Source: Daphnia carinata
Lineage: Eukaryota; Arthropoda; Branchiopoda; Diplostraca; Daphniidae
DNA: 64,000 nt
Direction of reading: 5' to 3'
NCBI RefSeq assembly: GCF_022539665.2
Contig: NC_081331.1
Location: 5,800,501 to 5,864,500, forward strand
The notes under the pieces are model-generated. The model was not told the origin of the DNA. It made no database searches and was given only the letters and a program-made list of their open reading frames with translations. Positions 7,555-34,632 of the stretch are shown here, piece by piece; position 1 is the stretch's first letter, and the number at the start of each line of letters is the position of its first letter. Made by a program: the position numbers and the translations under genes.

Positions 7555-7741
7555 CTGCTGCAATGGGAAGTGTGGATTGTGGGACGTCTCGGTCGGGCAA
7601 TCCTCTGGCGCGATAGGCCGAACGAACCGACGAGCAGCTCACGTTGTTACTGGGTGATGTTGGCAGAGAGGCGTTAACGATGGTGAACCAAATCAGCAAC
7701 AGGAGCCATCGGTGAGAAATGAAAACTAAAGGAGAAGCCAT
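7555..7741 (-). CDS. Glypican exon 1, proximal copy (signal peptide)
   Basis: This first coding exon has 187 bases. The ATG at 7,741 has a good context and is followed by MASPLVFISHRW and a strongly hydrophobic stretch LLLLIWFTIV, a signal peptide. The mature N terminus has NNVSCSSVRSAYRARG, the typical start of the glypican cysteine-rich domain. Donor GTAAATT follows GCAGCAG, leaving phase 1, which fits exon 2 at 195-383 exactly. The same exon occurs 8.55 kb upstream (16,103-16,289), so the gene has two candidate first exons. The frame stays open upstream of the ATG but has no earlier ATG, so 7,741 is the chosen start. Confidence 0.85.
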
Positions 7742-11971: not shown

Positions 11972-14461
11972 TTAAACTGAACCTCCATCTTTAAGAAATG
12001 CTGGCATTTGGATGAAATGATATTCATCCTTTCTATCAATCTTGCTAGTTTCATGGGCAATGTCTTCCGTTTTACATTTGCGAAATCGAATGTATTTTTT
12101 CAGGCTTACAATCGATTCCAGCGTTTGCCGCTGCTTTGGTTCTACGTTTTCTAACTTTTCATTTACTTTATCCTGGGCACATTTAACTACGCTTTCGAGA
12201 TCAGCATACGAGGGTTTTTCATTCAAATATGCTTCCCACAAAGCCTCACAGAGAGCTTGAATAAAAGAACTACCCAAATACTCTCTCACTTTACCGTTCT
12301 TGTATAATCGGTTGGCTTCGAAGCCGGCCAGAGTTGCTTTGATTGTTATGAAATCCATCAGTGGAGGATACTTCGTAAGTTTTTGTGGTGTCTCGCTTTC
12401 ACGGTTAGTATTAACTTCCATTCTTGGCGATTGGGCTATGGGAGGTGATTGCCCTTTACCTAGATAGAAGGAAAATCAAATCAAATTATTGCACGAAGGG
12501 TATTGATGAACTGAGAAATGTGAGTAGGTGAGTTACAAACCGAGTGCAAATAAAACGGTATTCCACATGTGGGAAATCAGCTTCGTAACGACGTGTGGCG
12601 AATGGCGAGAAGGATAAACTATATCCGTTTTGCTCTGGCTCAGTTCCCCCTGACAAGCCTGGACGATGAATATTTTGGGTTTGCCGTACAGACTGGGGCA
12701 CTTAGCTAAAGAGAACTCGTACTTAAGTTCATTAATATTAACGTAAAGACCATCGTAACACATGATTGTGTTCTCGGTTCCATGAGACAAAAGACATACA
12801 ACAAGGCAACCATAATCCTTCCAATTTTTTTTGGCCAGACTGTTGATATCGGATTTCAAATCAAACGATGCACTATTTTCAATAATTTTAATTTCGAAAC
12901 CCAATTCTTTAAATGCATCCTCTAACTTATCTCGGTCTTTGTCGCTCCCACCGCGGTTCTAGATTAAAACAACATAAAAGTAAATCAATAAAAATGATGG
13001 AGGATCAAATGGCGTTTGATAGTTGTTAGAATTTCCATCGTGGTACCTGTTTTTTATCTTGAAAAACCTGTTGGTTAAAGATAACACAAAGGCCAGGTTT
13101 CTTATATTTCTTATCACCTATCTTATAATCTTCGGAAGGGTTGTAATAAGGACTGCGAAGGACTTCTTCTAATTCTGGACGTTCACCCTCGTTGAACTTC
13201 AACATCGACTTGATAAGCTTTACTACGTTCTTGTTCTGATCGCTGAGAACGAACTCATGGTTTTTTTGATAGACGAAATACGTAGTATCTCGTATGTTGT
13301 CCCGACGCACTCCGTGATTGCCAAATGGATGTTTGGGTTCGTTGTTGCCCGTCCGTGCGGTTAGGACATAGTGATAGAAACAACCTAGAATGAAGACATC
13401 CAATTTTGTGCTGAGATCTTTTGTCTTATCCCCGCTTTCCGGTGCTTCCCATCCTTCTGATGCAGCAGATCCCGATTGCTTAATATCGTTCTCAGGGTCA
13501 TGCCTTCTGGTCAGACGAAAATCAGTTATTTTAACCACATATCGGCATGCACTGTTAACGGACGAATCCAATTTCTTAATAAGGAAGTTATTTGGCTTGA
13601 TGTTTCGGTGGATAAAGTTGTTTTCATGCAAATAATGGAGTCCTCTCGTTGCCTGTCGCAGGATTTCTTTCTCTGGCAAATCCAAGAGAATTTCTTGATC
13701 CAAACAGAATTTGTTGTTGAGCTCTCGATCCAAAAGATCTGCCACAGAACACAGGCACAGTTCTGTTGCAAGGTACCTGTGTAAATAATCAAAAAAGGTT
13801 TCAAAGTAAAGAATAAAAGGATAAATGCTGGTTGCTGATATACATATAGAACGAGTCCATTTCGTGAGCGAAAAAGCGGATAAAATTTTCGTGGGCTCCT
13901 AATTCCTTTAATATTCGACACTCCCGTTCAATTTCTTTCTTCTGATCTTTGCTGTGGTCTAACAATGTCTTTACGATGGCCACTGGAACATCGCAGTTGT
14001 AGTTGTAGAACCCTTTAACAATTTGTCTTTTGTTCCTTAATGAAGTTTTTTTTTTTTTATATTTTCTTCTCCTTCTGGATTGCCGGACAAATATAGAAAA
14101 ACGGGCTCTCCATTTTTGCTTTCAGTGTAAGCGTAGTAAAGATTACCATTATCCTCATGTTCTGCGACAAATAGAGAGAATTTCAAACAAGTGTTTTTAG
14201 TGATTAAACGTTTTTGGTTTCCCCCATGTCAGACGCAATCACAGGAAAATGAGACATACCGATATTTGGAATTTTCTCCTGAAGTGGAATGGGTAGCAAC
14301 GTTTCGTCGTCCGATTCAACCAGTGTTCCATCTCCTTGGCTTGGACTGGACTCCTGGAAATTGCGATCTAATCCTAATTGGCTGGTATCCGTAGCAGTAC
14401 TATTGGAGTTGTCAGCCTCCGTAGATAACACCCTGTGTCTTCTGAAGGTGCTCCGTTCCAT
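11972..14461 (-). pseudogene. Kinase-caspase fusion, copy A (frameshifted)
   Basis: Exons read on the minus strand are 14,461-14,260, 14,161-13,844, 13,776-13,047, 12,958-12,541 and 12,459-11,972. Exon 1 encodes a variable linker starting MERSTFRRHRV. Exons 2-3 encode an IRE1-like kinase (HRNIKPNNF and DFR motifs). Exons 3-5 encode a caspase with SHG and QACQG, and a p10 subunit with SSFIQALCE. Exon 2 breaks the frame in a run of 13 A (14,046-14,058 on the plus strand): the upstream frame reaches TAA just after it, and the kinase frame resumes in another phase. The total length (2,156 bases) is not divisible by three. Everything else, splice sites included, is intact, so the break may be recent, may be an assembly slip in the homopolymer, or may be bypassed by a start within exon 2. 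The 5' half matches copy D and the 3' half matches copy B. Confidence 0.8.
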
Positions 14462-16102
14462 TTTTTTGTTCCAGATGTACACACTGTTTGATGTCGTAAC
14501 ACAGTGTTTGATAAGTAGCCTGATTCTGTCCAAGTCGTTCTTCAACCACTCGTTGTGTCCGCTCACTGAACGTCTATAATATCAGATATATCCACGCATT
14601 TACATAAAACTTATGTGCAGAAAGTCGTTCGTTTTACTATCAGTGTAGTCTATAACACAATACGTTTTATCAGTAGTTAACAGATTAACCTTTTCACCTG
14701 TAGATATGAAATTATAGCTGGCGTTATCTGTCCTATCGGTTAACAACAACATTTGCTAGGTAAAAAAGCCATTTATTTATTCTTTTTTTCTTTTTTCTGC
14801 TGAAATCAAACAGTTCCTCCTTTTTTTTTTTGCTCCCCCCCCCCACCTTTGGTTTTCACTGGAAATTGAACGGATGACAGAAATTTATTATTTTTCAGAA
14901 CCCATCCCAATCGCCATAACGAAGAAGAAAATGTTCAGCTGCTTCGATATGTTAAGAAGAAGAAGAAAAAAAAGGATTTTTGAATTCTAGTTGTGAATTG
15001 AAAAGGTGCCAACAGACAGAAAGAAGAAGAAAATTCCATGGAATCGAATCCGGAATTGGACACGGGCAGCGGAGCCCAAAATTTCAATGGAGCGGAAAAC
15101 GTTTCGACACAGTTGTGCCGACACAACGAGGCGTTCAGGAGGAAAAACTTCTGGATTTTAATTAACAGCCTCCTTCCCCCTTTACCCCCCGTCTACATGC
15201 AAGCAATTTAGACATGGCTATAGTGTAGTAGTACACGAAAAGTTAGTAGCAGCGAAAAGTTTCGAAACTTTTGTGGATGCGAAAAACCGGATGGGGTCCC
15301 TGTCACATGTCACACAGCCAGCCCTTTAAGTTCTACATCGACCGAAATATAACAAGTCTATGAAAAAGGAGTCCATTTGAACAGATACACACGAACTAAA
15401 GGCTTCCGGCATCCGTTCCCCCCAAAAAAGGAAGGACGGAAAGAACACACGTGCTAACGGTGCCCAAACACAAAGAGTTTTTCCACATCCAAAACACGAA
15501 AAGGTAAAGACATGTCAAGTGATTCTCACATTCAATAACGTTTGAATGATGATGGCATTGTTGAATAAAAAAATTCCTAACCGAGAAACGTGATCGGTAA
15601 ATTAAAAGGAGCCCAAGACATTTCCGTCAGCCACAAAAGAAAAATGCCGACTGCAAATAAACAGAGGGAAACGGAAAGACTTATTTTTCGGTAGACACTC
15701 AAATTGGTATATTAAATAACTAGCTAGTAGAAAGAAAAAACTGTTAAAGCAAAAGGAAAAAAAAATGGGGGATTGAAAGTCTAATGATATACACAGTTGC
15801 AACAAGTCCTCCTCTTTGAATTGGGCATTCATTGTCTTCTTTTTTTTTGCTAAGCACCTGGATTCGTTGGCTTTGTTTTCTACATTTTTTGTGTTTCACG
15901 ATGCGCACGGCTTCACGTGATTATAGGGGAACTGCTGATGCGTTTGAACGATTGACACGACTAAAGACTTGCAAAGTATCAGTTCAATCTGACAAACCCC
16001 ACACACAGTAAAAAAAAAACGAGACTGTTCTGATCAGTCACACGATCGAGATTTTCAAGGCTGGCTAGAGACTATTTGTAAACACTTATTGTTTTAATTT
16101 AC
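14462..16102. other. 5' flank of copy A and duplicated glypican intron 1 sequence
   Basis: The stretch 14,462-14,769 is the upstream flank of copy A and closely matches the flank of copy D (30,749-31,055). From 14,770 the sequence is the second copy of glypican intron 1 (compare 6,215 onward). No gene seen. If the distal glypican exon 1 is used, this becomes part of its intron. Confidence 0.6.
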
Positions 16103-16289
16103 CTGCTGCAATGGGAAGTGTGGATTGTGGCACGTCTCGGTCGGGCAATCCTCTGGCACGATAAGCTGAACGAACCGATGAACAGGTCACGTTGTTACTG
16201 GGTGATGTTGGCTGGGAGGCGTTAACGATGGTGAACCAAATCAGCAACAGGAGCCATCGGTGAGGAAAGAAAACTAAAGGGGAAGCCAT
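16103..16289 (-). CDS. Glypican exon 1, distal duplicate
   Basis: This is a second 187-base signal-peptide exon, ATG at 16,289, starting MASPLVFFPHRW, with the same hydrophobic core and NNVTCSSVRSAYRARG. The donor GTAAATT and phase 1 are preserved, so it can splice to exon 2 at 195-383 over about 15.7 kb. It differs from the proximal exon in only a few residues (for example ISHRW/FPHRW and ASLPT/ASQPT), and all are compatible with function. It could serve as an alternative first exon with its own promoter, or be a non-functional passenger of the duplication. The PVVCE gene and kinase-caspase copy A lie between it and the rest of the glypican gene. Confidence 0.65.
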
Positions 16290-17506
16290 TTTCACTTTTG
16301 GTGGTTGATGAAAACTTGTTGCTCTTTTTTCGACTTTTGGCACGATGCGCCTCCAACGGCGTGGCGAGAAGAATGGCCGCTGTTTTTGTTTTTTTTATTT
16401 CAAATATTAAAATAGAAAAACCACGAGGAAATGTGTGTTTTTAACTTTTATTTCTTTTTTTTCTAATTTTCTTCCACCTTCTTTTTTCGACGGCCTTGGA
16501 ATGTTTTCGAGATGGAAATTTACACAAATCACTCCCGGCTGCTGGACGGATGAATCACCATCGTTATTTTGTTGTTTTCTGAACTTTTCGATGGCTCTCT
16601 CTCAAAACGACCCAGAATAGAACACACGAAGGGTTAAAAATTGATAACGGAATTTGCATACTGCCGACCAAAACGGAGACGATTGAAACCAAATTTCTTG
16701 TTAAAACTTGACTTGCAGCAACGAGGAGGAGAAAACAGAATACGAACAGGCGAGGAGAGACAGGACGCACATGCGAACCGATCGTTACTTGACTCTCGAC
16801 TGATTCGACTCGGAACTTTAGCAGCCAAACCAAGAAGTCTCTCCTCCCCTTACCTTCGTCGCTATCCAAACGACAACAGCACCAAAAAGAATACGCGCGT
16901 CAATGGCGCCAGGCTCTAATGCCTCTAAGGTTTGGAGGAGTGAGCAAAATACGCAAAGAAATTGATTCGTTTACGACATCTAGCGATCGCTTTGAAAGTA
17001 CGGCGCAAAAAACCTTGTCTTTTTTTTTCTTTGTTTTTCTAACAACGAGCTTGCAGCTTACCCTTCTTATGAAAATCTTGCATTTCTGTTTTTATTATAG
17101 TGAGCTTAAACTATTTCGTTTCATGATGCCAATTAAATTGAATTTCATAACAAGTATAATCAGTTTCACTATAAGTCGTCAGCCTGATCAACAAGTGGTC
17201 GGCCGAAACACATTGGCGGCTCGATATTCAGCGTTGAGGTAATCATTTCAGTTATATTTTCTAATTTCACATGGAATATAAGGAAAACTAGTATTTGAAA
17301 TGCATCTGAAAAAAAAATACTGAACGCGAAAACATAAAAGTTAATGCCACAATTTTGAAATTGAATTTTTAAAATCAAAATTTCGAGTTGAAACGACAAC
17401 GAAAACGGAGTTCGTCATGAGATAGGGGCAGAGCAAGCTAAGCCGAATTTTATCGATATTTTCCTGACTTTAAAGCTCGTCACCAGCGACTTGCAAGTTA
17501 TCGAAA
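16290..17506. other. Divergent upstream region, duplicate
   Basis: This is the counterpart of 7,742-8,974, between the distal glypican exon 1 and the second PVVCE gene. It is strongly similar to the first copy apart from small indels and contains no recognisable gene. Confidence 0.4.
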
Positions 17507-19231
17507 ATGCCTATCAATACTTCATTTCCAATTCCCAAACCTCTCCCAGGATTGAAGAAAGCTTTTCCAAGTGTATCACCGCGTGTCAACTCTTTCAGAG
17601 ACCGCAAAGCTGTTTCCAAGTTACTATCCACTTCTGCGGTTCCTGAAAGTTCCGGCAACGGTTCTAAATCTACCAACGTAAGCCAATCCCCGAGATCGCG
17701 TACTCATCACGATTCCTCTGGTGTTTCAGCTTGCCTCAAACCTGCCAACCCAGAAAAAGTGGAAGTTAAATCGAAAGTACCAACACAAAAGCCGGTTGTT
17801 TCCAAAGCACCGGTGACACGGAAGAACACCATCCGGGCAGATAGCGCAGTTGTGGTGAAATCCCCTCCAGAAGACTGTGTGCGCCAACCTTTCCGGGCCA
17901 AACCTGCTCCTTCAAGCACCTACAAACCACCAAAGGATGGCTCGGCAGTTAAACAAGGACTTCAACGACCGGCCAAAAAAGACGCGGCCAAATCACCGCA
18001 GCCAGAACAGGTGAAACCCGTACCTTTCCGTGCTCGACCTGTTCCTGCTAGCACATACAAGCCGTCTTTCCAACCAACGGTACGCAAAATCAACAAGGTC
18101 GTTATCAAAACGGAACAAGACCCCGTGGAAATTGTCAACGAGCCCACAATCGCAAATGAAGTGGAAATTGCTGAGCCGACCCACGAACCTGTTTGCTGCG
18201 AAGCATCGAAGGTTTGTGAAACAGGGGCTTGTGAACCGGTGGTTTCTGAACCGGTGGTTTGTGAACCGATGGTTTCTGAACCCGTGGTTTGTGAACCGGT
18301 AGTTTGTGAACCGGGGGTTTCTGAATCGGTGCCCGTGGTTTGCGATAAATTGGCTAACGTCCATGCCCGAAAAGTGCGGAGGAGAAAACCTAACAAGGCT
18401 GAATGGAATGCGTCGTACCAACGTAGATTGGCCAAGAGGGTGGCCGAGAGAGCCGACAGGGCCGCTCAAGAGCAACAAGCAGCTCTCACAGAAGTATCCG
18501 AGAAGAAGGACTTGGTTACGGGAGAAGATACGAGTGAAAAGGAACCCGTGGTTTGTGAGCCGGTGCTTTGTGAGCCAGTGGTTTGTGAACCGGTGGCCGC
18601 ATTGGCTGAAGCAAGCACCTTGAAAGTAAACGCGCGTCCACTTTTACCTCGACATCCGCAAGGGCCGGGCGTGCCACCTTTTCTGCCAAAGGCGTTTATC
18701 AAGGACTGCCTAAGACCTTATGTCCCTCAGCATTGGGACCAGTACACCCAACCACCTGATTACGGTAACCTTTGCGATGCAAATGGCACGTACTTTCGGG
18801 ACATATTCATGGCCAACTATCACTGCGTTCGCATGGCTGAAAATAATTTCTACCAATACTTCCGTAAACATGATGTTGGTGATGGAGCTGTGCGAAGACA
18901 AGCTGACGTCCAAGGCAATGACGACGTCGTGGACCCGATTTCAGCTTCCATCGAAGAGGTTGGGTTACCTGAATCGACGTGCACTGCTGTTGTAGAAGAA
19001 CGTTTACCTGTTGACACCCAATATGAATCCGACGTTTATGTTTCTTCTGTTCAACGTGAGAGGTCGGCTGATAGGACTGCTAAATCAGCTACAAATGTCC
19101 CTGATCATGGACAACAAGAAGAGACCACAAGGAAGAGACCACGAAATGCGGCCTACCGACGTAGATTGGCCAGGCGAGCTCAAGAGAGAGCAGAAAGAGC
19201 TGCAATGGAAGCAGAGAAGCAGGTGGCTTAG
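17507..19231 (+). CDS. Unrecognised PVVCE-repeat protein, copy 2 (574 aa)
   Basis: This intact single-exon frame of 574 codons is a paralogue of 8,975-10,948. It has the same Pro/Lys-rich N terminus (MPINTSFPIPKPLPG). PVVCE-like blocks lie at about residues 234-280 and 346-363. The unique region is at about 377-473 (RPLLPRHPQG, PDYGNLCDANGT, NFYQYFRKHD) and the C terminus is Arg/Ala-rich (YRRRLARRAQERAERAAM). It lacks one YQRRLARR module that copy 1 has, has fewer PVVCE units, and ends AEKQVA, a few residues beyond copy 1. Indels between the copies are multiples of three, as expected for a protein under constraint. Function unknown. It lies tail to tail with kinase-caspase copy B. Confidence 0.75.
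   Translation: MPINTSFPIPKPLPGLKKAFPSVSPRVNSFRDRKAVSKLLSTSAVPESSGNGSKSTNVSQSPRSRTHHDSSGVSACLKPANPEKVEVKSKVPTQKPVVSKAPVTRKNTIRADSAVVVKSPPEDCVRQPFRAKPAPSSTYKPPKDGSAVKQGLQRPAKKDAAKSPQPEQVKPVPFRARPVPASTYKPSFQPTVRKINKVVIKTEQDPVEIVNEPTIANEVEIAEPTHEPVCCEASKVCETGACEPVVSEPVVCEPMVSEPVVCEPVVCEPGVSESVPVVCDKLANVHARKVRRRKPNKAEWNASYQRRLAKRVAERADRAAQEQQAALTEVSEKKDLVTGEDTSEKEPVVCEPVLCEPVVCEPVAALAEASTLKVNARPLLPRHPQGPGVPPFLPKAFIKDCLRPYVPQHWDQYTQPPDYGNLCDANGTYFRDIFMANYHCVRMAENNFYQYFRKHDVGDGAVRRQADVQGNDDVVDPISASIEEVGLPESTCTAVVEERLPVDTQYESDVYVSSVQRERSADRTAKSATNVPDHGQQEETTRKRPRNAAYRRRLARRAQERAERAAMEAEKQVA
18546..18596 (+). repeat. 15-base coding minisatellite (PVVCE), short block
   Basis: About three units encode PVVCE, PVLCE and PVVCE. 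This is the orthologous position of the 12-unit block in copy 1 of the gene. Confidence 0.75.
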
Positions 19232-20235
19232 GCTGCAGTGCCCCAAGTGCCTCAGAGTCATTAACTTTCCATTTTCAACACAATGTGTATCAAAATTCTC
19301 AAGTTTAACCTTTTCTTCGGCTTTTCTTTAATTCTAAATTTGTAAAGATGTCCTTCCCCATTAGCAACCAAAGGAACTGGGAGGTGAACCCGTAAACGGA
19401 GTTGTTGTTGTCGTATGTGGGGGCTAACCTATTAATGTTTTCTTTCTGTTTCAATTGTCTTCTTCACGGCACAAGCTTGCGGTGCAAGTGACGGGATGGT
19501 GAGCAATATTGCCATCTCTCACTAGCACGCACTCGCCCGAAGAAGACCATCACGAGAGTTGATTGTCTCGTGATGTTGGCAGAAGTTAACAAGTTGTCCC
19601 TCACGAGAGTTGATTGTCTCGTGATGGTGGCAGAGTTAATAGGTTGTCCCTCACCTCTGCAACAATGCGCAATTACCTTTACGGGGGAATTTTTCCTTAA
19701 ATGAGCCAATCAGTTCTGGAAGTGCGCTGCTATGGAGACATCTGAGCAAGTATTCTTCTCCTTTTTTCCTCTTTTTTCCTTATTCTTTTGCTGTTGTTTC
19801 TGTTCGGCTTGTCATGTTGTTAATTTACTGTTCTGTCAGTTGATTACGGCTTGTCATATTGTTAATTTACTGTTCTGCCAGTTGATTACAAACAAAATTT
19901 TAAATCAATTTATTACCTTTGTTTTCTTTATTAATAATTGGATTTCAATCCAGTTCGTGCGTTGTTCAGGGTTATCCGCTAAGTATTTCCAAATTATTGC
20001 ACTTTATTCGGTCAGAAGCTCCACAGTTATCAAGCAAAGGCAGTATGGGCGAATACATTGGATGTCTTGTTCCCAGTTTTCTTCCCCAAATATTCATTAG
20101 ACAAAGCTAGATAGCACAAAGCAAGAGATATTACAGATGGCAATTTTATAATGGCAGAACAATTTAAACAGGCAAGATTAGTTCACAACGATTTGGATCT
20201 CCTGTTGTTTTACTACTGGGCATTACATGCCAAAT
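19232..20235. other. Intergenic, duplicate of 10,949-11,971
   Basis: This interval holds the second copy of the 51-base hairpin repeats (about 19,551-19,623) and the shared 3' flank of the kinase-caspase unit. From about 19,724 it is almost identical to 11,460 onward. No gene seen. Confidence 0.6.
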
Positions 20236-22620
20236 TTAAACTGAACCTCCATCTTTAAGAAATGCTGGCATTTGGATGAAATGATATTCATCCTTTCTAT
20301 CAATCTTGCTAGTTTCATGGGCAATGTCTTCCGTTTTACATTTGCGAAATCGAATGTATTTTTTCAGGCTTACAATCGATTCCAGCGTTTGCCGCTGCTT
20401 TGGTTCTACGTTTTCTAACTTTTCATTTACTTTATCCTGGGCACATTTAACTACGCTTTCGAGATCAGCATACGAGGGTTTTTCATTCAAATATGCTTCC
20501 CACAAAGCCTCACAGAGAGCTTGAATAAAAGAACTACCCAAATACTCTCTCACTTTACCGTTCTTGTATAATCGGTTGGCTTCGAAGCCGGCCAGAGTTG
20601 CTTTGATTGTTATGAAATCCATCAGTGGAGGATACTTCGTAAGTTTTTGTGGTGTCTCGCTTTCACGGTTAGTATTAACTTCCATTCTTGGCGATTGGGC
20701 TATGGAAGGTGATTGCCATTTACCTAGATAGAAGGAAAATCAAATCAAATTATTTGGCACGAAGGGTATTGATGAACTACGAAATGTGAGTAGATGAGTT
20801 ACAAACCGAGAGCAAATAAAACGGTATCACAAATGTGGGAAAGCAGCTTCGTAGCGGCGTGTGACGAATTGCGAGAAGGATAAACTATATCCGTTTCGCT
20901 CTGACTCAGTTCCCCCTGACAAGCCTGAACGATGAATATTTTTGGTTTGCCGTACAGATTGGGGCACTTAGCCAAAGAGAACTCGTACTTAAGTTCATTA
21001 ATATTAACGTAAAGACCATCGTAACACATGATCTCGTTCTCGATTCCATGAGATAAAAAACATACAACAAGGCAACCATAATCCTTCCAATCTCTTTTGG
21101 CCAGATCCTTGATATCGGATTTCAAATCAAACGATGCACTATTTTCAATAATTTCAATTTTGAAACCCAATTTTTTAAACGTCTTCTCTAACTTATCACG
21201 GTCCTTGTCGCTCCCACCGCGGTTCTAGATTAAAACAAAATAAAAGTAAATCAATAAAAATGATGGAGGATCAATTGGCGTTGATAGTTATTAGAACTTC
21301 CATTGTGATACCTGTGTTTTATCATGAAAAACCTGCTGGTTAAAGATAACACAAAGGCCAGGTTTCTTATATTTCTTATCACCTATCTTATAATCTTCGG
21401 AAGGGTTGTAATAAGGACTGCGAAGGACTTCTTCTAATTCTGGACGTTCACCCTCGTTGAACTTCAACATCGACTTGATAAGCTTTACTACGTTCTTGTT
21501 CTGATCGCTGAGAACTAACTCATGGTTTTTTTGATAGACGAAATACGTAGTATCTCGTATGTTGTCCCGACGCACTCCGTGATTGCCAAATGGATGTTTG
21601 GGTTCGTTGTTGCCCGTCCGTGCGGTTAGGACATAGTGATAGAAACAACCTAGAATGAAGACATCCAATTTTGTGCTGAGATCTTTTGTCTTATCCCCGC
21701 TTTCCGGTGCTTCCCATCCTTCTGATGCAGCAGATCCCGATAGCTTAATATCGTTCTCAGGGTCATGCCTTCTGGTCAGACGAAAATCAGTTATTTTAAC
21801 CACATATCGGCATGCACTGTTCACGGACGAATCCAATTTCTTAATAAGGAAGTTATTTGGCTTGATGTTTCGGTGGACAAAGTTGTTTTCATGCAAATAC
21901 TGGAGTCCTCTCGTTGCCTGTCGCAGGATTTCTTTCTCTGGTAAATCCGAGAGAATTTCTTTATTCATCAGGAATTTATTTTTGAGCTTTCGATCCAAAA
22001 GTTCTGCCACAGAACACAGACACAGTTCTAGTGCAAGGTACCTGTGTAAATAATCAAGAAGGCTTTCAAAGTAAAGAATAAAAGAACAAACGCAGGTTGC
22101 TGATTCATACACAAAGTCCGGGCTCATTTCGTGAGTAGAATAGCGGATAAAATTTTCGTGCGCTTTTAGTTCTTTCAATATTCGAACCTCTCGTCCAATT
22201 TCTTTCTTCTGCTCGTTGGTGGACACTGGCAATTTTACGATGGCTACTTGAACATCGCAGTTGTAGTTGTAGAACCCTTTCATAATTACTCTCCTTTTCT
22301 CTCCCAAACATTGAGGAACTTGGCTTCCATCTTTTAGAATGTATCCTCTGAAAAGTTCACCATTATCTAAAGAGAAAATTTCAAACAAGTTTTTTAGTGA
22401 TTAAACGTCTTTTGGTTTCCTCCACGTCAAAAAAAATCACAGAAAAGTGAGACGAACCGACAATTGGAGTTTCCTCCTTAAGTAAGGGTATGTCTTCGTC
22501 TTTCAATTCAACCGGTGTTTCATCTCGTGGGGTTGGGCTGGGCTCTTGGATATTGCGCTCTAGCGTTACTCGGTTGGCCGTCGCAGCATTCTCAGAGCTG
22601 TCACCTTGCGCAGCAAACAT
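20236..22620 (-). CDS. IRE1-like pseudokinase-caspase fusion, copy B (684 aa)
   Basis: Exons read on the minus strand are 22,620-22,458, 22,366-22,111, 22,041-21,312, 21,224-20,807 and 20,723-20,236. The sum is 2,055 bases with no internal stop. Residues 1-54 are a polar linker (MFAAQGDSSENAA). About 55-360 are a kinase domain of the IRE1/RNase L group: ENFIRY after a conserved Glu helix, LALELC hinge, HRN at 196-198 in place of HRD, DFR at 225-227 in place of DFG, WEAPE, DVFILGC, HPFG. From about 366 a caspase follows: GLCVIFNQQ, NRGGSDKD, SHG with His about 442, QACQG with Cys about 485. The p10 part has FIQALCE and ends at a TAA-type stop. No KEN nuclease, signal peptide or membrane span is present. 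Known caspases cut after Asp, and the S1 arginines (NRGGSD and EANR) are kept. The role is inferred only: a caspase gated by a pseudokinase. The start is the Met conserved with copies C and E. Confidence 0.9.
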
Positions 22621-23987: not shown

Positions 23988-26311
23988 TTAGAAGCTCGAT
24001 GTAACGTCAGTGCCCTCGGGGTCACGTTTCCGGAATCGAATATTTTTACTTAGGCATGCTTCCCATACCACAGTTTGCCGTGAGTCCCTTCCTGAACGTT
24101 CGTTGACTTTGTCCTGAACACATTTAAGTAATTTTTCAAGATGCTTGTTCTTATGTTTGGTTCCCGTTTCCTCCTTCAAACATTCATCAGACAAAGTCTC
24201 ACAAAGAGCTTGAATGAAACAGGTACCGCTTACGGGATTCCGGTAGGCAACGAAACCAGGTAGAGTGGATTTGATTGTAAAGAAATCCATAAGCGGCGGA
24301 TTTCTTTGAGCGCTGTCATGAATTTTCTTTTCACGTAACTCTCTTTCGTAATTGCAGATCTCGTTTGTCGGTTGAACTACGGATGGTGATGAATGCAATT
24401 TACCTGGATAGCAGGAATTTAAAAAAAATTTATTACTCTGCATGAAAGGTATCGGTGAACTGAAGAAGACGAGAAAATCAGTTACAAACCGGTGAAATGC
24501 AAGTAAACGACACCAGGAACGGCCCACAGCTTTGAAATGAAGGTCGTTTGATGGGCAGAAGAAGCTTTTATTCCCTCTTCCTGTTGTTCAAGTTTTCCCT
24601 GGCAAGCTTGGACTATGAAGATTTTGGGTTTTCCATACAGACTAGGACACTTGTTCGAAGAGAACTCGTATTTTAATTCGTTTATGTTAACGAATTTGCC
24701 ATCGTAACATAAGATTGCATTCTCAATTCCATGAGACAAAAGGCACACAACTAAGCAACCATAATTCTTGAAATCTCTTTTGTTGGCCAGTTCGTTGATT
24801 TCAGATTTCAACTTATCCGAATTTAGATTTTCGTGAACTATAAAATCGAAACCAAGCTTTTTAAATATATTCTTTAACGCTTCTTTATCCTTGTCGCTCC
24901 CTTCACGGTTCTGGTAGAAAATGAAATAAATTGATAAACAAAATTTTGGAGAATTAGGGATAACAACCAGTGTTTGACAAGTAGGAACTTCCGTAGTACC
25001 TGTTCCGGATCTTCAAATTCTTGCTGGTTGAAGATAACACAAAGGCCGGGTTTAACATCTAGATCAGCATATATCCTGTAATCTTCGGAAGGTTTGAAAT
25101 AAATATCGTCAAGAACATTTTCTAATGTTGGACGTGCGTCCTCCTTGAACTTCAACATCCAATTTATAAGGTCTTCCGCCTTTTTCATGTCCTTGATATT
25201 TTCACTGGTAGCGAACAGAAAGCCATTTTTATATAATAGATAACATGGATCTTGAATGTTTATCCCACGAGTACGTTCATCGCCGAATGGATGTCTGGGT
25301 TCTTTCTTGCTCGTCCATGCGGTTAGGACATAGTAATAAAAACAACCGAGAATGAAGACATCCAATTTTTTGCTGAGGTTTTTTGTCGTATCTCTGCTTT
25401 CCGGTGCTTCCCATCCTTCTGATGCAGCTGGTCCCGATAACGTCGAATCATTTTTAGGATCATATTTTCTCGACAGGCGAAAATCTGTTATTTTTACCAC
25501 AAATCGGCAAGTGCTTTCACCTGTTTTATTAATTTCTTTAATAAGAAAATTATTTGGCTTGATGTTGCGGTGGACAAAGTTGTTTTTGTGCAAGTAATTG
25601 AGTCCATTCGTTGCCTGTCGCAGGATTTCTTTCTCTGGTATTTTGAGAATATCTTCTTTCATGGGGATTCTCTTACCGAGGGCTGGATCTAAAAGATCTG
25701 CCACAGAACACTCACACATTTCTATTGCAAGGTACCTGTGTAAATAATCAAAAAGATTTTGAAATCAAAGCAAAGAATAAAAGAATAACCGAAGGTTGCT
25801 GATTCATACACGAAGTTCGAGTCCATTTCGTAAGTGAAATAGCGGATAAAATTTTCGTGGGCCTCTAGTTCCTTCAATAATCGAATCTCCCGTTCAATTT
25901 CTTTCTTCTCCCCTGGGCTGTAGGCCGGCAATTTTACGATGGCTACTAGAAGATTGTAGTTGTAGAACCCTTTCATAATTTCTCTCGTTTTGTTTCCCAA
26001 ATATTGGGTATCGTGGCTTCCATCTTTTAGAATACAACCTGCGTAAAGATTACCGCTACCTAAAGAGAAAATTTCAAACAAGTTTTGAGTGATTATACGT
26101 CTTTTGGTTCCTCCACGTCAAACAAAATCACAGGAAAGTGAGACGTACCGACAATTGGAGTTTCCATCTTAAGTAAGGTCGTGTCTTCTTCTTCCAATCC
26201 CACCGGTGTTTCATCTCGTTGGACTGGACTGGGCTCCTGGATATTGTGCCCTAGCGTTACTAACTTGGCCGTAGCAGCACTCTCAGAGCTGTCAGCTTGC
26301 GTAGAAATCAT
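23988..26311 (-). CDS. IRE1-like pseudokinase-caspase fusion, copy C (661 aa)
   Basis: Exons read on the minus strand are 26,311-26,149, 26,059-25,810, 25,735-25,000, 24,910-24,490 and 24,403-23,988. They total 1,986 bases with no stop. The linker begins MISTQADSSES. The kinase part shows EIEREIRLLKELEAHENFIR, LAIEMC, HRNIKPNNF (HRN about 193-195), KITDFRLSRK, WEAPES and HPFGDE. The caspase begins GLCVIFNQQEF and has NREGSDKD, LLSHG (His about 443) and QACQG (Cys about 486). The p10 part has GFVAYRNP and TCFIQALCE. It is similar to copy E across the kinase. The p10 tail is shorter than in A and B. All GT-AG junctions keep phase with the other copies. Confidence 0.88.
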
Positions 26312-26889
26312 TCTGTGTTTTTCGAACGTGGTCCGTTCATTTGTTTTTTCCAGATTTACTAAAGCACTATTTGGTGTACGTGACACAATGTTTGATAAGT
26401 AACCTGATTCTGTCTTTGTCCTAACTGAACGTTTTCTAAGGTTTTTAAACTACGTTCTAAGGTAGCGTTATCAGAAATATCTACGCACTTGCTTAGCTTT
26501 ACTATCAGTGTATTGTACAATACGTTCTATCAGTTGTTAATAGATTAACGTTATTACCCGTGGATATGAAATTATAGCTGACCGTTGTCTGTACTATCTG
26601 TTAACGGCAACATTTACTAAGCAAAAAAAGCCACAAAATGCGATCTCAAGCTATCGTATGTGTGGAATCTACCAATGCATCGGTAAAAAAGCCTGTACAA
26701 ATTGTACAAGTTTATTTCGTGCTAGCTAGCCTATACAGTGTTCAGCCATTTTACTGTGATTTTAGTATATGAGATTATATACGAAAAAGTACACCTTGTC
26801 TTGTCGCCTAGGTCAGGCTGTCTGAACCCAATCGAAATAAGAAAATCAAGGTTAGAACCTAGGCTTGCAAGAACGAATTCAATTGCTCA

Positions 26890-27005
26890 TTGCTTGCTGT
26901 GTAGAAAGCATTCTGTTCGTTGTTTTTAAGTTGGTTCACTCACTTTTTTTCAGACGTACTAAAGCACTATTCGGTGTACGTGGCACAGTGTTGATACTGT
27001 CCTGT
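26890..27005 (-). pseudogene. Relic of kinase-caspase exon 1 start
   Basis: The block GTGTAGAAAGCATTCTG followed by CAGACGTACTAAAGCAC and CGGTGTACGTGGCACAGTG matches the exon 1 start and leader of copy E (about 34,620-34,720). The linker coding sequence is largely deleted. Confidence 0.6.
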
Positions 27006-27630
27006 TGTAGCTCTGGTTGCAGAAACGAAACTGCACGTTTATTGCTCTAGCGGCCCCCCCCCCCCCCCTCCGAGCTGCCGGAAATCTGTGGCGTCACTTG
27101 TGGACAACCTTGACATGTTTTAGTCGTTCCTCAGCGACTCGCTGTGTCCAATCACTGAACGTCTTCTAATATCAGATATATCTACGCACAAGCTTAAAAC
27201 TTATCTGCAGTAAGTCGCTATTCATTTTACTCTTAGTGTGTTGCAAAATACCTTATATATATTGTTAATAAAGAACTTTATCACCCGTAATATGAATTTT
27301 GCTGCTGGCCACTGCCTGTTCTATCGGTTAACAGCAATACGTACTAGACAAAAAAAGCCACATAATGGGGTCTCAGGCTATATCGTATGTGTGGAATCTA
27401 CTATTGCATGGAACAAATTCTTTTGCTGTGGTTTTTGTTCGCTTGTCATATTGTTAATTCACTGTTCGGCTTATCAACTTCGTTTCCTTTGTTGATAATA
27501 GGATTTCAATCCAATCCCTTCGTTATTCAGGGTTACCCGCAAAAATTTCCAAATTATTACACTTATTCGGCCAGAAGCTCCATAACTATCAGGCAAAGGC
27601 GGTACGGGTGAAGACATATGACGTCTTCTT

Positions 27631-27880
27631 CCCCGCTTTCTCCTTCAAATATTCATTCGACAAAGCGTTATAGGGAGCTTGAATGAATCAGCTACCTTCC
27701 CCCGGCATCCCGGTAGGCAATGAAACCAGGTAAAGTTGATTTGATTGTAAACAAATCCATAAACGGCAAACTTCTTTAAACACTGTACCGACTTTCATTT
27801 CTCATAACTTTTTTAAATAATAGTTGAATTTTATGTCCTCGTTTGCCAATTGAACTGTGGACGGTGATGATTCCAATGTG
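27631..27880 (-). pseudogene. Relic of a kinase-caspase p10 exon
   Basis: Read on the minus strand it retains MDLFTIKSTLPGFIAYRD, the start of the caspase p10 subunit. The hallmark GSWFIQALCE region then has TGG changed to TGA and a frame change. Flanking bases match exon 5 of copies C and E (for example the TCAATTGGCAAACGAGGACAT-like part). No other exons of this unit are found nearby. Confidence 0.8.
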
Positions 27881-28265
27881 TCGGTTTCTCCCGTTTTCCG
27901 TGTCCTTTCCACGTCAACTAATCATATATGCATAATATTATAAACGATTCATTTGTTTTCCTGGTATAATTAGATGTGTTAAACTAACAGTGGCTTTTAG
28001 GATCATGGCTTTGAGCGGATTTGGAGGGAATACAAATTCAGTTCAATTTTATTAGTCTTTCTGAGTGGTCTTTGGCTGAAGATATCCAATGTATTGGCTA
28101 GAGATGTTACAGATGACAATTTATAAATCACAGAACATTTTCAACAGACAGGATTTATCAACAGCAACTTGGATCTCCTATTGTTTTACTACTGGGAATC
28201 ACGTACCAAATTCAAACTGAACCTCCAACTATAACAAACGCTAGGGTTTTACGATGAAATGGTAA

Positions 28266-30748
28266 TCATCCTTTCTTTGAATCTGGCTTAGGTGTAACGT
28301 CTTTGCCTTTGACTGCACAGTTGCGAAATGTAATGTTTTTGCTCAGGCATGTTTCCCATTGCATGGTTTGCCAGAAGCACTGACACACACCTTGTTGCTG
28401 GCCCTCACCTTGGTTCTTGCACTCAAATTGGTGCATGACATTCGCCATCTCTGCCCTTGAAAATGCATTGATTTTATCCTGAACACTCATTTTAAGTAAG
28501 TATTCCAGATGATGGGGATTATCTTTCTTCATTTCTTCGGACAAAGTATCACAGAGAGCGTTGATGAAAAAAGTACCTAGATCCTTGTTCCTGAAGGCTT
28601 CGAAGCCGGCCATAGCTGCTTTGATTGTTATGAAATCCATTAGTGGAGGATACTTCATAGCGTCTTGCCTTATTTTGCTTTCATAGTTGGGATTAATTTC
28701 CAATTTTGGCCATTTGACTTCGGTAGGTGATTGCCATTTACCTGGATAGCAGGAATACAAAGTCAAATTATTTTGCACGAAGGGTATTGATGAACTGAGA
28801 ATGTAAGTAGATGAGTTACAAACCGAGAGCAAAGGAAATGGTATCCCACATGTGGGGAAAAATGTCGCCGTTTTTACTCAATGGCACCTGACAAGCCTGG
28901 ACAATGAAAATTTTGGGTTTGCCGTACAGACTGGGGCAATTATATAAAGAGAACTCGTTCTTGAGTTCAGTATAATTAACGTATCGACCGTCGTAACACT
29001 GAATTGCGTTCTCGACTCCATGAGACAAAAGGCACACAATAAAGCATCCATAATCCTTCCAATCTCTTTTGGCCAGATTTTTGATTTTGGATATCAAATC
29101 AAACGATTCAAGATTTTCATAAACTTCAGTGTCGATACCCGATCCGTGAAACATAAGCTTTAACTTTTCTCGATCCTTGTCGCTACCTGCGCGGTTCTAG
29201 ATTAAAATAAAATAAAAGTAAATCAGTAAAAATGATGGAGTATCAACTGGCATTAAATAGGTAATAGAATTTCCATTGTGATACCTGTTCTTTATTTTTA
29301 AAAAATTGCTGGTTAAAGATAACGCAATGGCCAGGTTTCATCTCATTTCTCTTATTATATATATCATAATCTTTGACAGGGCTGAAATAAAGGCTGCAAA
29401 GGACTGCTTGTAATGTTGGACGTTCGCTTTCGTTGAACTTCAACATCAATTCCATAAGCCTTACCACGTCCTCGTTCCCATCACTGAGAACGAAGTCAAG
29501 GCCTTTGTTATAGACTGAATAATCTTTATTGTGAAGGTTTCGTATACGCAGACTGGAAGTGTCGCCGAATGGATGTTTGGGTTTTCCATCACCCGTACCT
29601 GCGGTTAGGACATAGTGATAGAAACAACCTAGGATGAAGACATCCAATGTTGTGCTGAGATCTTTTGTCACATCTGTACTTTCCGGTGCTTCCCATCCTT
29701 CTGATGCAGCAGATCCCGATAGCTTTCCAGTGTTCTCAAGGTCGTGCTTTCTGGTTAGACGAAAATCAGTTATTTTAACTACATATCGGCATAAGCTTTT
29801 CGCGGACGGATCAACTTCCTTAATAAGGAAGTTGTTTGGCTTGATGTTTCGGTGGACAAAGTTGTTTTCATGCAAGTAATTGAGTCCTCTCGTTGCCTGT
29901 CGTAGGATTTCTTTCTTTGGTAAATCCGAGAGAATTTCTTCATCCATGCAGAATTGATTATTGAGCTCTCGATCCAAAAGATCTGCCACAGAACACAGAC
30001 ACAGTTCTACTGCAAGGTACCTGCGGAAATAATCAACAAGGTTTTCAAAGCAAAGAATAAAAGAATAAACGCAGGTTGCTACTTCATACATATAGTTCTC
30101 ATCTTGTCTATGAGTGAAATAGCGGATAAAATTTTCGTGGGCTTCTAGTTCTTTCAATATTCGACACTCCCGTTCAATTTCTTTCTTCTGATCTTCGGTG
30201 TAGACCAGCAATGTCTTTACGATGGCCACTAGAACATCGCAGTTGTAGTTGTAGACCCCTTTAAAAAAATTTCTTTTTTGCTTTTTTTCTGAATTTTCTT
30301 TTTTTTTATTTCCTTGCCCTTCTGAATTATTTTTTTTTTTATTTTCTTCTTCTTCTGGATTGCCGGACAAATATTGCAAAACGGGCTTTCCATTTTTCTT
30401 TTCAGTGTAAGCATAGTAAAGATTACCATTATCCTCCTCATGTTCTGCGACAAATAGAGAAAATTTCAAACAAGTGTTTTTAGTGATTAAACGTTTTTGG
30501 TTTCCTAGAACCACGTCAGACGCAATCACGGAAATATGAGACATACCGACATTTGGAATTCTCTCCTTAAGTGGAATGCGTAGCAACGTTTTGTCGTCCG
30601 ATTTAACCAGTGTTCCATCTCCTTGGCTTGGACTGGACTCCTGGAAATTGCGCTCTAATCTTAATTGGCTGGTAGCCGTAGGAGTACTCTTGGAGTTGTC
30701 AGCCTCCGTAGATAACACTCTGTGTCTTTTGAAGGTGCTCCGTTCCAT
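28266..30748 (-). CDS. IRE1-like pseudokinase-caspase fusion, copy D (713 aa)
   Basis: Exons read on the minus strand are 30,748-30,547, 30,444-30,090, 30,020-29,285, 29,196-28,824 and 28,741-28,266. They total 2,142 bases with no stop. The linker starts MERSTFKRHRV. Exon 2 has an added Lys/Asn/Glu-rich insert of about 35 residues before the kinase N-lobe (KKENSEKKQKRN). Kinase motifs are HENFIRYF, LAVELC, HRNIKPNNF, KITDFRLTRK, WEAPES and HPFGD. In the caspase, NRAGSDKD and LLSHG (His about 490) are normal, but the active-site motif is QACQV (Cys about 533) rather than QACxG. The stretch between the large and small subunits is 15 residues shorter than in A and B. The p10 part has GFEAFRNK and TFFINALCD. 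Confidence 0.88.
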
Positions 30749-32224
30749 TTTTTTGTTCCAGATGTACTAAAGCACTGTTTGGTGTCGTGGCACAGTGTTG
30801 ATAAGTAGCCTGATTCTGTCCAAGTCGTTCTTCAACCACTCGTTGTGTCCGCTCACTGAACGTCTATAATATCAGATATATCTACGCATTTACTTAAAAT
30901 TTATGTGCAGGAAGTCGTTCGTTTTACTATCACTATAGCACAATACGTTTTATCAGTTGTTAACAGATAAACCTTTTCACCTGTAGATATGAAATTATAG
31001 CTGGCGTTATCTATCCTATCGGTTAACAGCAACATTTGCTAGGTAAAAAAGCCACGTAATAGGATCACAAGCTAGCTTATGTGTGGAATCTACTAATGCG
31101 TAGAACGAAAAGCCTATACAAACTGGACAAATTTCTATCCTTCTAGCTAGACCGTACAGTCTTCAGCCCTTTTACTGTCATATAAATACCTTATGCTAAC
31201 CAACGGCACCCTTGGAAATAATCTACTAAATCCTCTCACGAGTTGGCGTGATGAGATTAGATACGATAAAAGGACGCCTTGTCTTGTCACATAAGTCAGA
31301 GGGGCTGAACTCAACCGAAATAAGAAATTCATGGTTGGAAACTAGGCTTACAAGAACGAATTCAGTTTCTCACTTGAGGTCCTTTCTTTTTTTTGCAAAT
31401 ATCTATCCTGATTGTTCTGCCTTTCACTACCTTTTCTTATTTGATATTTTCCTAGTTAACAGTTGGCTAATGTATGAACTTTCTTTGCCCTTACTTAAAC
31501 GAACTTTGCTCTCGGTTGCGGTGTTGCATTTCCTGGTGAAGAATTCCGGGACTAGTAACGGCAGCAACTAGCACATCGCTTTAATGTGCCCCTATCACCA
31601 TCAATCCTAAATACCGAAATACCTGACGAAAAAAACACCAAAAAGGGAAACAACAAACATTTAAAAATGTTCTGGAAGTGCGCTACTATGGAGACACCTG
31701 AGCAAGTATTCTTCTCCTTTTTTTCCCCTCTTTTTCCTTATTCATTTGCTGTTGTTCTTGTTCGGCTTGTCATGTTGTTAATTTACTGTTCTGTCAGTTG
31801 ATTACACACAAAATTTTAAATCAATTTATTATCTACTTTTTCTTTATTAATAATTGGATTTCAATCCGGTCCCTGCGTTACTCAACGTTACCTGCAAAGT
31901 ATCCCACCCTGCAAATTATTACACTTATTCAGTTTAGAAACTCCAATTATCAGGCAAAGGCGGTATTATAGTAGAGGAGGTGGCCGAAACGAGGTTTTAA
32001 GTCCCCCTTCATATCTACAAATAAAATCGAAACAAATATTAAACGTTTACCGATAGTGATAATAGGGAAATAAGATGATTTCATACTGGTTGTATTTGAA
32101 GTTTCATAAATGCTCATAATGATTTTGGCTTCAAACATTCTGTTTTTCAAAGAAAACGATTTACGAACTTTAGAAGATTTGATACACGTAGAGCTCATTA
32201 AAATCAATTTGCATCTCTCAACAA
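30749..32224. other. Spacer between copies D and E
   Basis: This spacer contains the 5' flank of copy D (nearly the same as that of copy A), a tRNA-Ile-like fragment (about 31,171-31,222), the conserved array segment ending GCTTACAAGAACGAATTCA, and the 3' flank of copy E. No gene seen. Confidence 0.5.
31171..31222 (-). pseudogene. tRNA-Ile(UAU) 5'-half remnant, degenerate
   Basis: This sits in the same array position as the fragment at 23,031-23,080. It still shows GTTGGTTAGCATAAGGTATT and TATGACAGTAAAAG on the minus strand, with further substitutions in the A box. The 3' half is absent. Confidence 0.55.
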
Positions 32225-34632
32225 TTATTGTTCGATGTTAAATGCGCCCATATCTTTTCTATCATTCATTGTAATGTCAGTGCCTTCGGTGACACCTTTC
32301 TGAAATCGAATGTTTTTACTTATGCTTGCTTCCCATTGCATAGTTTGCCAAAGGTCCTCTTGTGAATTTGTGTTAATTTCGTTCTGAACACATTTAAGTA
32401 AGTCTGTAAGATCCTTTTGTGATGTTCCCGCTTCCTTCTCCAAATATTCATCAGACAGAACTTCACAGAGAGCTTGAACGAACCAGCTGCCTCCCTCGGG
32501 ATCCCGGTAGGCAATGAAACCAGGTAGAGTTGATTTGATTGTAAGGAAATCCATAAGTGACGGATTTCTTTGAGCGCTGTCCTGACTTTTCTTTTCTAGT
32601 AACTCCTTTTTGTAATTGCTGGCTGTTATGTCCTCCTTTGCCAATTGAACTAGGGATCGTGATAATTCCAATGTACCTGGATAGACGGAATACAAAAAAT
32701 CTAGTTATTCTGCATGAAAGGTATCGATGAACTGAAGAAGAAGAGAAAATCAGTTCCAAACCGGTTAAATGCGAGTAAATGACACGAGGAACGGACAGTA
32801 GCTTTGAAATGAAGGTCGGTGGAGAGTAAAAAAGAACATCTCTTCCCATTTCCTGTTGTATCAGGTTTCCTTGGCAAGCCTGGGCGATGAAGATTTTGGG
32901 TTTGCCATACAGACTGGGGCACTTATACGAAGAGAACTCGTATTTTAATTCATTTATGTTAACGAATTTGCCATCGTAACATAAGATTGCATTCTCAATT
33001 CCATGAGACAAAAGGCACACAACTAGGCAACCATAATTCTTGAAATCTCTTTTGTTGGCCAGCTCGTTGATTTCAGATTTCAAATCATCCGACGTTAGAT
33101 TTTGGTGAACTTCAAAATCGAAACCAAGCTTTTTAAATGTATTCTTTAACGCTTCTTCATCCTTGTCGCTCCCTTCACGGTTCTGGTAGAAAATGAAATA
33201 AATTGATAAACAAAATCTTTGAGTATTAGGGAAAACAAGCAGTGTTTGACAAGTAAGAACTTCCGTGGTACCTGTTTCGGATCTTCAAATTCTTGCTGGT
33301 TAAAGATAACACAAAGACCGGGTTTAACATCTTGATCAGCACCTTGATCAGCATATATCTTGTAATCTTCGGAAGGTTTGAAATAAACATTATCAAGAAC
33401 ATTTTCTAATGTTGGACGTTCGTCCTCCTTGAACTTCAACATCCAATTTATAAGGTCTTCCGCCTTTTTCATGTCCTTGATATTTTCACTGGTAGCGAAC
33501 AGAAAGCCATTTTTCAATATTGAATAAAGTGGATCTTGAATGTTTGTCCGACGATTACTTTCATCGCCGAATGGATGTCTGGGCTTTTGGTCGCTCGTCC
33601 ATGCGGTTAGGACATAGTAATAAAAACAACCGAGAATGAAGACATCCAATTTTTTGCTGAGGTTTTTTGTCGTATCTCTGCTTTCCGGTGCTTCCCATCC
33701 TCCTGATGCAGCAGGTCCCGATGACGCCAAATCTTGTTGAGGATCATACTTTCTCGACAGGCGAAAATCTGTTATTTTTACCACAAATCGGCAAGAGCTT
33801 TCACCTGTTTTATTAATCTCTTTAATAAGAAAATTATTTGGCTTGATGTTGCGATGGATAAAGTGGTTTTTATGCAAGTAATTGAGTCCATTCGTTGCCT
33901 GTCGTAGGATTTCTTTCGCTGGTATTTTGAGAATATCGTCTTTCATGGGGATTTTCGTTTCGAGGGGTGGATCCAAAAGATCTGCCACAGAACACAGGCA
34001 CAGTTCTGTTGCAAGGTACCTGTGTAAATAATCAAAAAAGTTTTCAACGCAAAGCAAAGAATAAACGAAGGTTGCTGAGTCATACACATAGTATAAGTCT
34101 TTTTCCTGAGTGAAATAGCGAATAAAATTTTCATGGACCTCTAGTTCTTTCAATATTCGAAACTCCCGTTCAATTTCTTTATTCTGCTGGTCGCTGTGGA
34201 CCAGCAATGTCTTTACGATGGCTACTTGAACATCGTAGTTGTAGAACCCTTTAATAATTACTCTCGTTTTCTTTTCTGTGGAGCTATTTGCATTTTCTTT
34301 TGGCTCGCCGGCTAAATATTGAGGCTTTAGGCTTCCATTTGTTAGAATATAACCTTGGAAAAGACTACCATTACCTAAAGAGAAAATTTCAAGCAAGTTT
34401 TTTTAGTGATTAAACGTCTTTTGGTTTCCTCCACATCCAATAAAATCACAGGGAAGTGGTACGTACTGATAATTGGTTTTTTCTTCTCAAGTAAGGGTGT
34501 GTCTACGCCTTCCAATTCAACCGCTGTTCTTTCTCGTTGGGTTGGGCTGGACTCCTGGATATTGGGCACTAATAGCGGTACTGGGTTGGCCGTAGCGGTA
34601 CTCCCAGAGCTGTCAGCCTGTGTAGAAAGCAT
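32225..34632 (-). CDS. IRE1-like pseudokinase-caspase fusion, copy E (691 aa)
   Basis: Exons read on the minus strand are 34,632-34,467, 34,374-34,086, 34,019-33,272, 33,182-32,762 and 32,676-32,225. They total 2,076 bases with no stop. The linker begins MLSTQADSSGS. Kinase motifs are VHENFIRYF, LATELC, HRNIKPNNF, KITDFRLSRK, WEAPES, DVFILGC, HPFGDE and RPTLENVL. A small 4-residue duplication (ADQGADQD) lies just before the caspase. The caspase has NREGSDKD, LLSHG (His about 461), QACQG (Cys about 504) and the most canonical p10 of the array: GFIAYRDP and GGSWFVQALCEVL. The first codon split is Ser rather than Gly or Asp. It is the right-hand end of the array. Confidence 0.9.

Follow-up and report, generated by a model that had tools for sequence, protein, structure and literature searches.

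Among the described systems closest to the genes considered here, RNase L contains an inactive pseudokinase thought to serve as a scaffold for homodimerization, according to a passage of PMC4718504, while the back-to-back dimer of IRE1 drives its RNase, as stated in the available text of PMC4536996. In the section of a review that treats them (PMC7290664), all caspases are described as being made as inactive monomeric zymogens, and the induced-proximity model is given as a general-level account of initiator activation, without mechanistic detail. Here, we analyze a tandem array of genes in a 64,000-nucleotide stretch of the Daphnia carinata genome (NCBI RefSeq assembly GCF_022539665.2, contig NC_081331.1, forward-strand positions 5,800,501 to 5,864,500), hereafter the window. 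Five minus-strand genes within positions 11972–34632 each join an IRE1-type kinase domain to a full caspase, with Peptidase_C14 occupying the position after the kinase by Pfam, where IRE1 and RNase L carry their KEN nuclease.

A custom spliced-alignment program (GT-AG introns, three phases) resolved each of the five copies, A to E, into five exons separated by GT-AG introns with the same phases, 1,2,0,1. This bears out the common five-exon design that a first-pass annotation had read on this strand. Copy A, which encodes a predicted pseudokinase-caspase of 691 residues by spliced alignment and Pfam (P0001, LOC130691333), lies at 34632–32228, with exons at 34632–34467, 34374–34086, 34019–33272, 33182–32762, and 32676–32228. 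It is followed by copy B (713 residues; P0009, LOC130691332) at 30748–28269 (exons 30748–30547, 30444–30090, 30020–29285, 29196–28824, and 28741–28269) and copy C (661 residues; P0002, LOC130691336) at 26311–23991 (exons 26311–26149, 26059–25810, 25735–25000, 24910–24490, and 24403–23991). The spliced translations of these three copies are identical, letter for letter, to the deposited proteins. Copy D (684 residues by spliced alignment) lies at 22620–20239 (exons 22620–22458, 22366–22111, 22041–21312, 21224–20807, and 20723–20239). Its deposited counterpart, P0019, has 520 residues that are exactly the last 520 of copy D; thus, the deposited model begins inside exon 3, though exons 1 and 2 are open. 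Copy E, at 14461–11975 (exons 14461–14260, 14161–13844, 13776–13047, 12958–12541, and 12459–11975), shares the layout; its exon 2 has a one-base frameshift near 14060, where the sequence is rich in A, and exons 3 to 5 are open. Stop codons follow the given ends of all five genes. The four open copies of 661 to 713 codons had been correctly recognized (691, 713, 661, and 684 in A to D), and the frameshift in the fifth is a correction.

The two halves meet inside a single exon. Exon 3 holds the kinase C-lobe and the caspase strand β1 (GLCVIFNQQ...) in one stop-free frame, uninterrupted from one to the other, as had been claimed; in copy A, the junction (YADQGADQDVKPGLCVIFNQQEFEDPKQ) spans 33355–33272. 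In the same copy, exons 2 and 3 (34374–33272) encode the putative pseudokinase with its HRN and DFR motifs, the caspase p20 exon (NREGSD, SHG, and QACQG) lies at 33182–32762, and the p10 exon at 32676–32228. A Pfam search, set beforehand as a test of the proposed domain order, detected both Pkinase (1e-33) and Peptidase_C14 (4.8e-49) in P0001, each far over the cut-off, and Ribonuc_2-5A at no fusion locus. Together with the deposited proteins, these data uphold the order of an IRE1/RNase L-type kinase followed by a full caspase in the place of KEN. The observation in the window is thus confirmed, and it is stronger than first stated.

Three lines of evidence indicate that the fusion kinase belongs with IRE1. 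First, among the best 60 of 325 matches in a PDB search, every IRE1 chain (E values 6.1e-24 to 2.8e-20) ranked ahead of the other kinases (from 2.6e-11). Second, a 38-kinase tree placed the 16 fusions together on one side of a branch (support 92/89) that was present in 200 of 200 bootstrap trees, and they lay near the 13 IRE1s (82/77). The fusions, the IRE1s, two ankyrin-kinases, and the gene L047 were split from six outgroup kinases at 99/98. P0109, a protein from a Sequence Read Archive (SRA) contig, branched first among the fusions, on a long branch. The tree contains nine long-branch rows and two identical outgroup rows, P0120 and P0121 having been dropped for lack of the motif; because several branches are long, the exact branching order is unsure. 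Third, a phase-2 intron at the kinase hinge falls at the same residue in the fusions (34085–34020 in copy A), in the D. carinata IRE1 gene (L046), in the ankyrin-kinase L048, and in L047. The last of these (C3:11879450) is a divergent IRE1-like gene whose kinase is degenerate (HGN) and whose KEN match is partial (2.2e-5); in the tree it grouped with the fusions at 91/65, its own branch being very long. An AlphaFold2 model built from 79 sequences (mean predicted local distance difference test score 77.8, predicted template modeling score 0.81), which replaced an earlier one from 20 sequences (63.9 on the former scale), gave a similar picture: among the 50 Foldseek matches listed, all were IRE1 and caspases. 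A VIA-align run on the earlier model was uninformative on the kinase, since only residues 368–668 were spanned by at least a fifth of the listed rows.

We found that the kinase half has lost the motifs of an active enzyme. HRD is replaced by HRN and DFG by DFR in all 20 aligned fusions, a set that includes the N-terminally incomplete P0019. When 16 fusions, including P0109, were aligned with 13 IRE1s, only one of the fusions had the β3 lysine, compared with all 13 IRE1s, while the DFG aspartate is kept in all 16 fusions and the catalytic-loop asparagine in 14. The pattern extends to the 78 proteins of DFR/DFH type among the 124 returned by our searches, all of which carry asparagine in place of the catalytic aspartate (61 by pattern and 17 by eye). 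Caspase strand β1 follows in the same protein in 64 of these 78 under a strict pattern and in 75 under a looser one that also accepts S, D, or H at the last position. The three without a match are P0013, which ends inside β1, P0021, and P0064; two D. magna family members, P0037 and P0040, have models without the HRN/DFR stretch and stand outside the 78. Thus, among the returned proteins, this pseudokinase occurs essentially only joined to a caspase. An NCBIfam scan gave only kinase matches far below the cut-off.

Of the first-pass description of this domain, the kinship to IRE1 stands, but the loss of the catalytic motifs had been overlooked; we rejected an active kinase on the HRN/DFR sequence. 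The kinase fold is probably no longer able to transfer phosphate, and phosphotransfer by the fusions is unlikely on these grounds. Nucleotide binding is possible: as stated in a passage of PMC4718504, the β3 lysine and both aspartates are not absolutely needed for it.

The caspase half, in contrast to the kinase half, looks live. All 20 aligned fusions retain R403, H461, Q502, C504, and R599, and the glycine after QACQ is kept in 17 and replaced in 3. Of these residues, we take R403, Q502, and R599 to be the Arg, Gln, and Arg of the P1-Asp pocket. The fusions have both the p20 and p10 subunits and the caspase fold, and the linker between the subunits contains at least one aspartate in all 17 proteins examined. 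In the five proteins scanned for extra domains (P0001, P0045, P0044, P0099, and P0100), only Pkinase, PK_Tyr_Ser-Thr, and Peptidase_C14 exceeded the Pfam cut-off, with no DED or CARD prodomain. The deposited names "caspase-8" and "Dronc" therefore find no support in prodomain content. P0109 departs from the common pattern: it has HRN but keeps DLG and the β3 lysine, its caspase part has lost SHG and the cysteine, and its Peptidase_C14 match is weak (2.4e-5); as judged from these motifs, it is a double pseudo-enzyme. A small 18-row caspase tree, with standalone rows restricted to p20 and four turtle caspase-8 rows filtered out beforehand, was uninformative on the origin of the caspase half: the fusions did not form one group in it; the remnant L052 and the standalone caspase L045 fell among them, and three branches were long. 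L045 has a phase-0 intron near the fusion caspase intron; because it lies four template residues off and a single template was tried, we do not count it as shared.

Named fusion proteins come from five species: D. carinata, D. magna, D. sinensis, D. pulex, and D. galeata. They are already present in RefSeq and UniProt, under the labels "uncharacterized," "caspase-8," "Dronc," "ire-1," or "mitogen-activated protein kinase 4." No named organism beyond these five was returned by the protein searches, including a profile search; two of the searches scored only the 7992 candidates sharing most words and all three used a length window, so the lack of hits outside Daphnia holds only within these settings. 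The metagenome or SRA proteins P0061, P0100, P0107, P0108, and P0109 are further members. P0100 is a 745-residue fusion on a contig of 2381 nucleotides with 22 member sequences, and it is 86% identical over 735 residues to a D. carinata counterpart that carries 546 nucleotides of introns. The simplest reading of the contig is therefore a spliced transcript that covers the entire fusion. The D. sinensis model P0098 (1194 residues) seems to be two tandem genes run together.

Across the D. carinata genome, we counted 19 caspase-bearing loci from 28 hidden Markov model rows, of which 13 are fusions or fusion remnants. The window accounts for five of these, with copy E frameshifted; a group of three at C1:6.63 Mb includes a broken one, two of the four at C2:6.05–6.08 Mb have frameshifts or worse damage, and the last, a remnant, is on C4. 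The other six showed no match to the fusion kinase at 1e-4 in the surrounding stretches fetched, and spliced alignment did not resolve a caspase at a locus on C10 (L054). In the C4 remnant (L052, 3283–6579), the fusion sequence is followed by an open reading frame that weakly matches reverse transcriptase (RVT_1, 6.9e-4, below the cut-off), probably a transposon insertion. A kinase cluster on C6 (9.4–10.1 Mb) was considered as a source of further fusions and rejected, as the seven overlapping loci scanned (L031, L035, L040, L041, L048, L049, and L055) show HRD and DFG. The two stretches opened there, L048 and L049, are ankyrin-repeat plus IRE1-like kinase genes by Pfam with HRD and DFG kept; their layout is RNase L-like, and KEN has no match on C6.

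To compare constraint along the proteins, we calculated Nei-Gojobori ratios of nonsynonymous to synonymous substitution (dN/dS) with custom code for seven pairs of D. carinata paralogs. The kinase gave 0.81–0.93 in all seven (0.84 for D/E, exon 3 only). The p20 core gave 0.20 (A-C), 0.27 (A-P3), 0.24 (C-P3), 0.30 (A-B), 0.45 (D-E), 0.49 (B-D), and 0.64 (B-P4), the lowest value among the segments compared in all six pairs other than D/E. Ratios for p10 were 0.42–0.94 in the six pairs where they were defined, and those for the linker 0.60–1.19 in six pairs. By these ratios, which gene conversion may influence, the protease core is the constrained part of the fusion proteins.

We slightly favor a reading in which the fusions are cytosolic initiator-type caspases whose prodomain, a pseudokinase of the IRE1/RNase L lineage, acts as a dimerization switch. 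Dimerization of the pseudokinase would be driven by binding of a ligand, nucleotide-like or other, or of a partner that contacts the N-terminal linker, which is short and variable; the paired pseudokinases would then bring two caspase zymogens together and activate them, in parallel to the RNase L pseudokinase, which brings two KEN nucleases together. Taken jointly, the RNase L scaffold, the IRE1 dimer, and induced proximity suggest that pairing of the pseudokinases would activate the caspase. The αC-β4 region of IRE1 supports dimerization, with the αC glutamate kept in 14, R627 in 13, and Y628 in 14 of 16 fusions. More tentatively, the genes may represent an animal initiator caspase of a new class. 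Such a protein would be a receptor akin to RNase L, with a ligand-gated, IRE1-derived pseudokinase as dimerization platform and a caspase in place of the nuclease; the family, which accounts for 13 of the 19 caspase-bearing loci counted in D. carinata, would have expanded and diversified in Daphnia to serve as a sensor for innate defense or stress-induced cell death.

Several points weigh against the dimerization switch. R594 is lost in 16 of 16 fusions and the acid at position 620 is kept in 12, so the IRE1 dimer interface appears only partly conserved. No sensor domain was found by Pfam in the window exons or the five scanned proteins. The kinase half is either diversifying or under relaxed constraint, as its fast evolution fits both, and two less constrained p20 cores (B-P4, 0.64; B-D, 0.49) also count against the reading. 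So do the loss of the catalytic histidine and cysteine motifs in P0109 and the 5 of 13 D. carinata fusion loci that are broken or remnants. Last, because kinases without the β3 lysine, such as WNK, can be active (a passage of PMC4718504), the deadness of the fusion kinase is itself a prediction.

The lost R594 and the drifted dimer surface speak for an alternative that we consider unlikely, albeit the best of those weighed, in which the pseudokinase serves as a prodomain for recruitment or inhibition. It would keep the caspase inactive or dock it on a partner kinase that is itself active, and the protease would be switched on by cleavage or by release of the partner rather than by homodimerization. 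Candidate partners with intact HRD and DFG exist in the same genome, in the ankyrin-kinases of C6, and the linker aspartates in 17 of 17 proteins are consistent with cleavage; however, the αC glutamate, R627, and Y628 are mostly conserved, and RNase L offers a precedent for homodimerization by a pseudokinase (PMC4718504, in the passage cited above). It is distinctly less probable that the fusions are regulatory pseudo-enzymes or decoys that have no protease action in vivo and control other caspases as cFLIP does. P0109, the 3 of 20 proteins with a replaced glycine after QACQ, and the broken D. carinata copies point that way, but all 20 aligned proteins retain the catalytic histidine and cysteine together with the three pocket residues, and the p20 core has the lowest dN/dS in all six pairs other than D/E. 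We rejected, as highly improbable, an annotation artifact joining separate adjacent genes, which the truncated model of copy D and the apparently merged P0098 might suggest, given the single stop-free exon, the presence of β1 in most of the 78 DFR-type proteins (64 under the strict pattern, 75 under the looser), the deposited fusions of five Daphnia species, and the intron-free 745-residue contig protein P0100.

Two further features of the window stand out. A recent segmental duplication (6216–14023 versus 14771–22287; two blocks of 92.6% and 94.7% identity) carries copies E and D, and also a long VVCEP-repeat open reading frame at 8942–10948 and 17474–19231, with Pfam Keratin_B2_2 in both. 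A galactose-3-O-sulfotransferase-type gene at 56384–57283 (Pfam, 1.2e-35) has no relation to the array.

The first-pass annotation knew of no described system with this architecture, and we found no description of a kinase-caspase fusion of this design in the literature searched, which covered few subscription journals; as far as searched, it is undescribed, though visible in deposited gene models. An analysis of HEPN/KEN domains (PMC3710099) lists kinase-KEN architectures, and its main text does not contain the word "caspase." The available text of PMC2685406 reports eight D. pulex caspases, five of them in two clades unique to that species, and notes a prodomain too variable for alignment; the word "kinase" is absent from its main text and from that of PMC3457901, which treats D. 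pulex caspases. One relevant paper on Daphnia caspase expression under parasites, PMC6295042, gives only a count of eight caspases in the text available. If the architecture functions as proposed, a caspase would be switched by a kinase fold rather than by a death-fold prodomain. The IRE1/RNase L kinase module can carry another effector in nature, a protease instead of an RNase. Because Daphnia is a model genus for ecology and host-parasite work, the misleading deposited names, corrected here, could skew expression and immune-gene surveys.

Of the known systems, IRE1 (luminal domain, transmembrane segment, kinase, KEN) has the closest kinase by sequence and fold and shares the phase-2 intron site; the fusions differ in showing no transmembrane segment or KEN and in having lost the kinase motifs. 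None of 19 proteins has a transmembrane-like segment (highest 19-residue hydropathy 1.54), and the N terminus is short, so the input of IRE1 from the endoplasmic reticulum lumen seems absent. A canonical IRE1 that includes KEN (L046) exists separately in D. carinata, and the three matches to KEN (PF06479, Ribonuc_2-5A) in its genome include none at a fusion locus. Caspase-8-type initiator caspases differ in their prodomain, which in the fusions is a predicted pseudokinase with no detected DED or CARD. Bacterial Peptidase_C14-kinase fusions also hold both domains in one protein, but these pair metacaspase/orthocaspase-type proteases with ordinary bacterial kinases, whereas the Daphnia genes pair a metazoan caspase with an IRE1-type pseudokinase. 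RNase L (ankyrin repeats, pseudokinase, KEN) resembles the fusions in having an apparently inactive kinase fold of the IRE1 lineage, no transmembrane segment, and an effector directly C-terminal. In contrast to RNase L, the HRD aspartate itself is lost in the fusions, the N terminus is short and variable, without ankyrin repeats by Pfam in the five scanned proteins, and the effector is a caspase instead of KEN.

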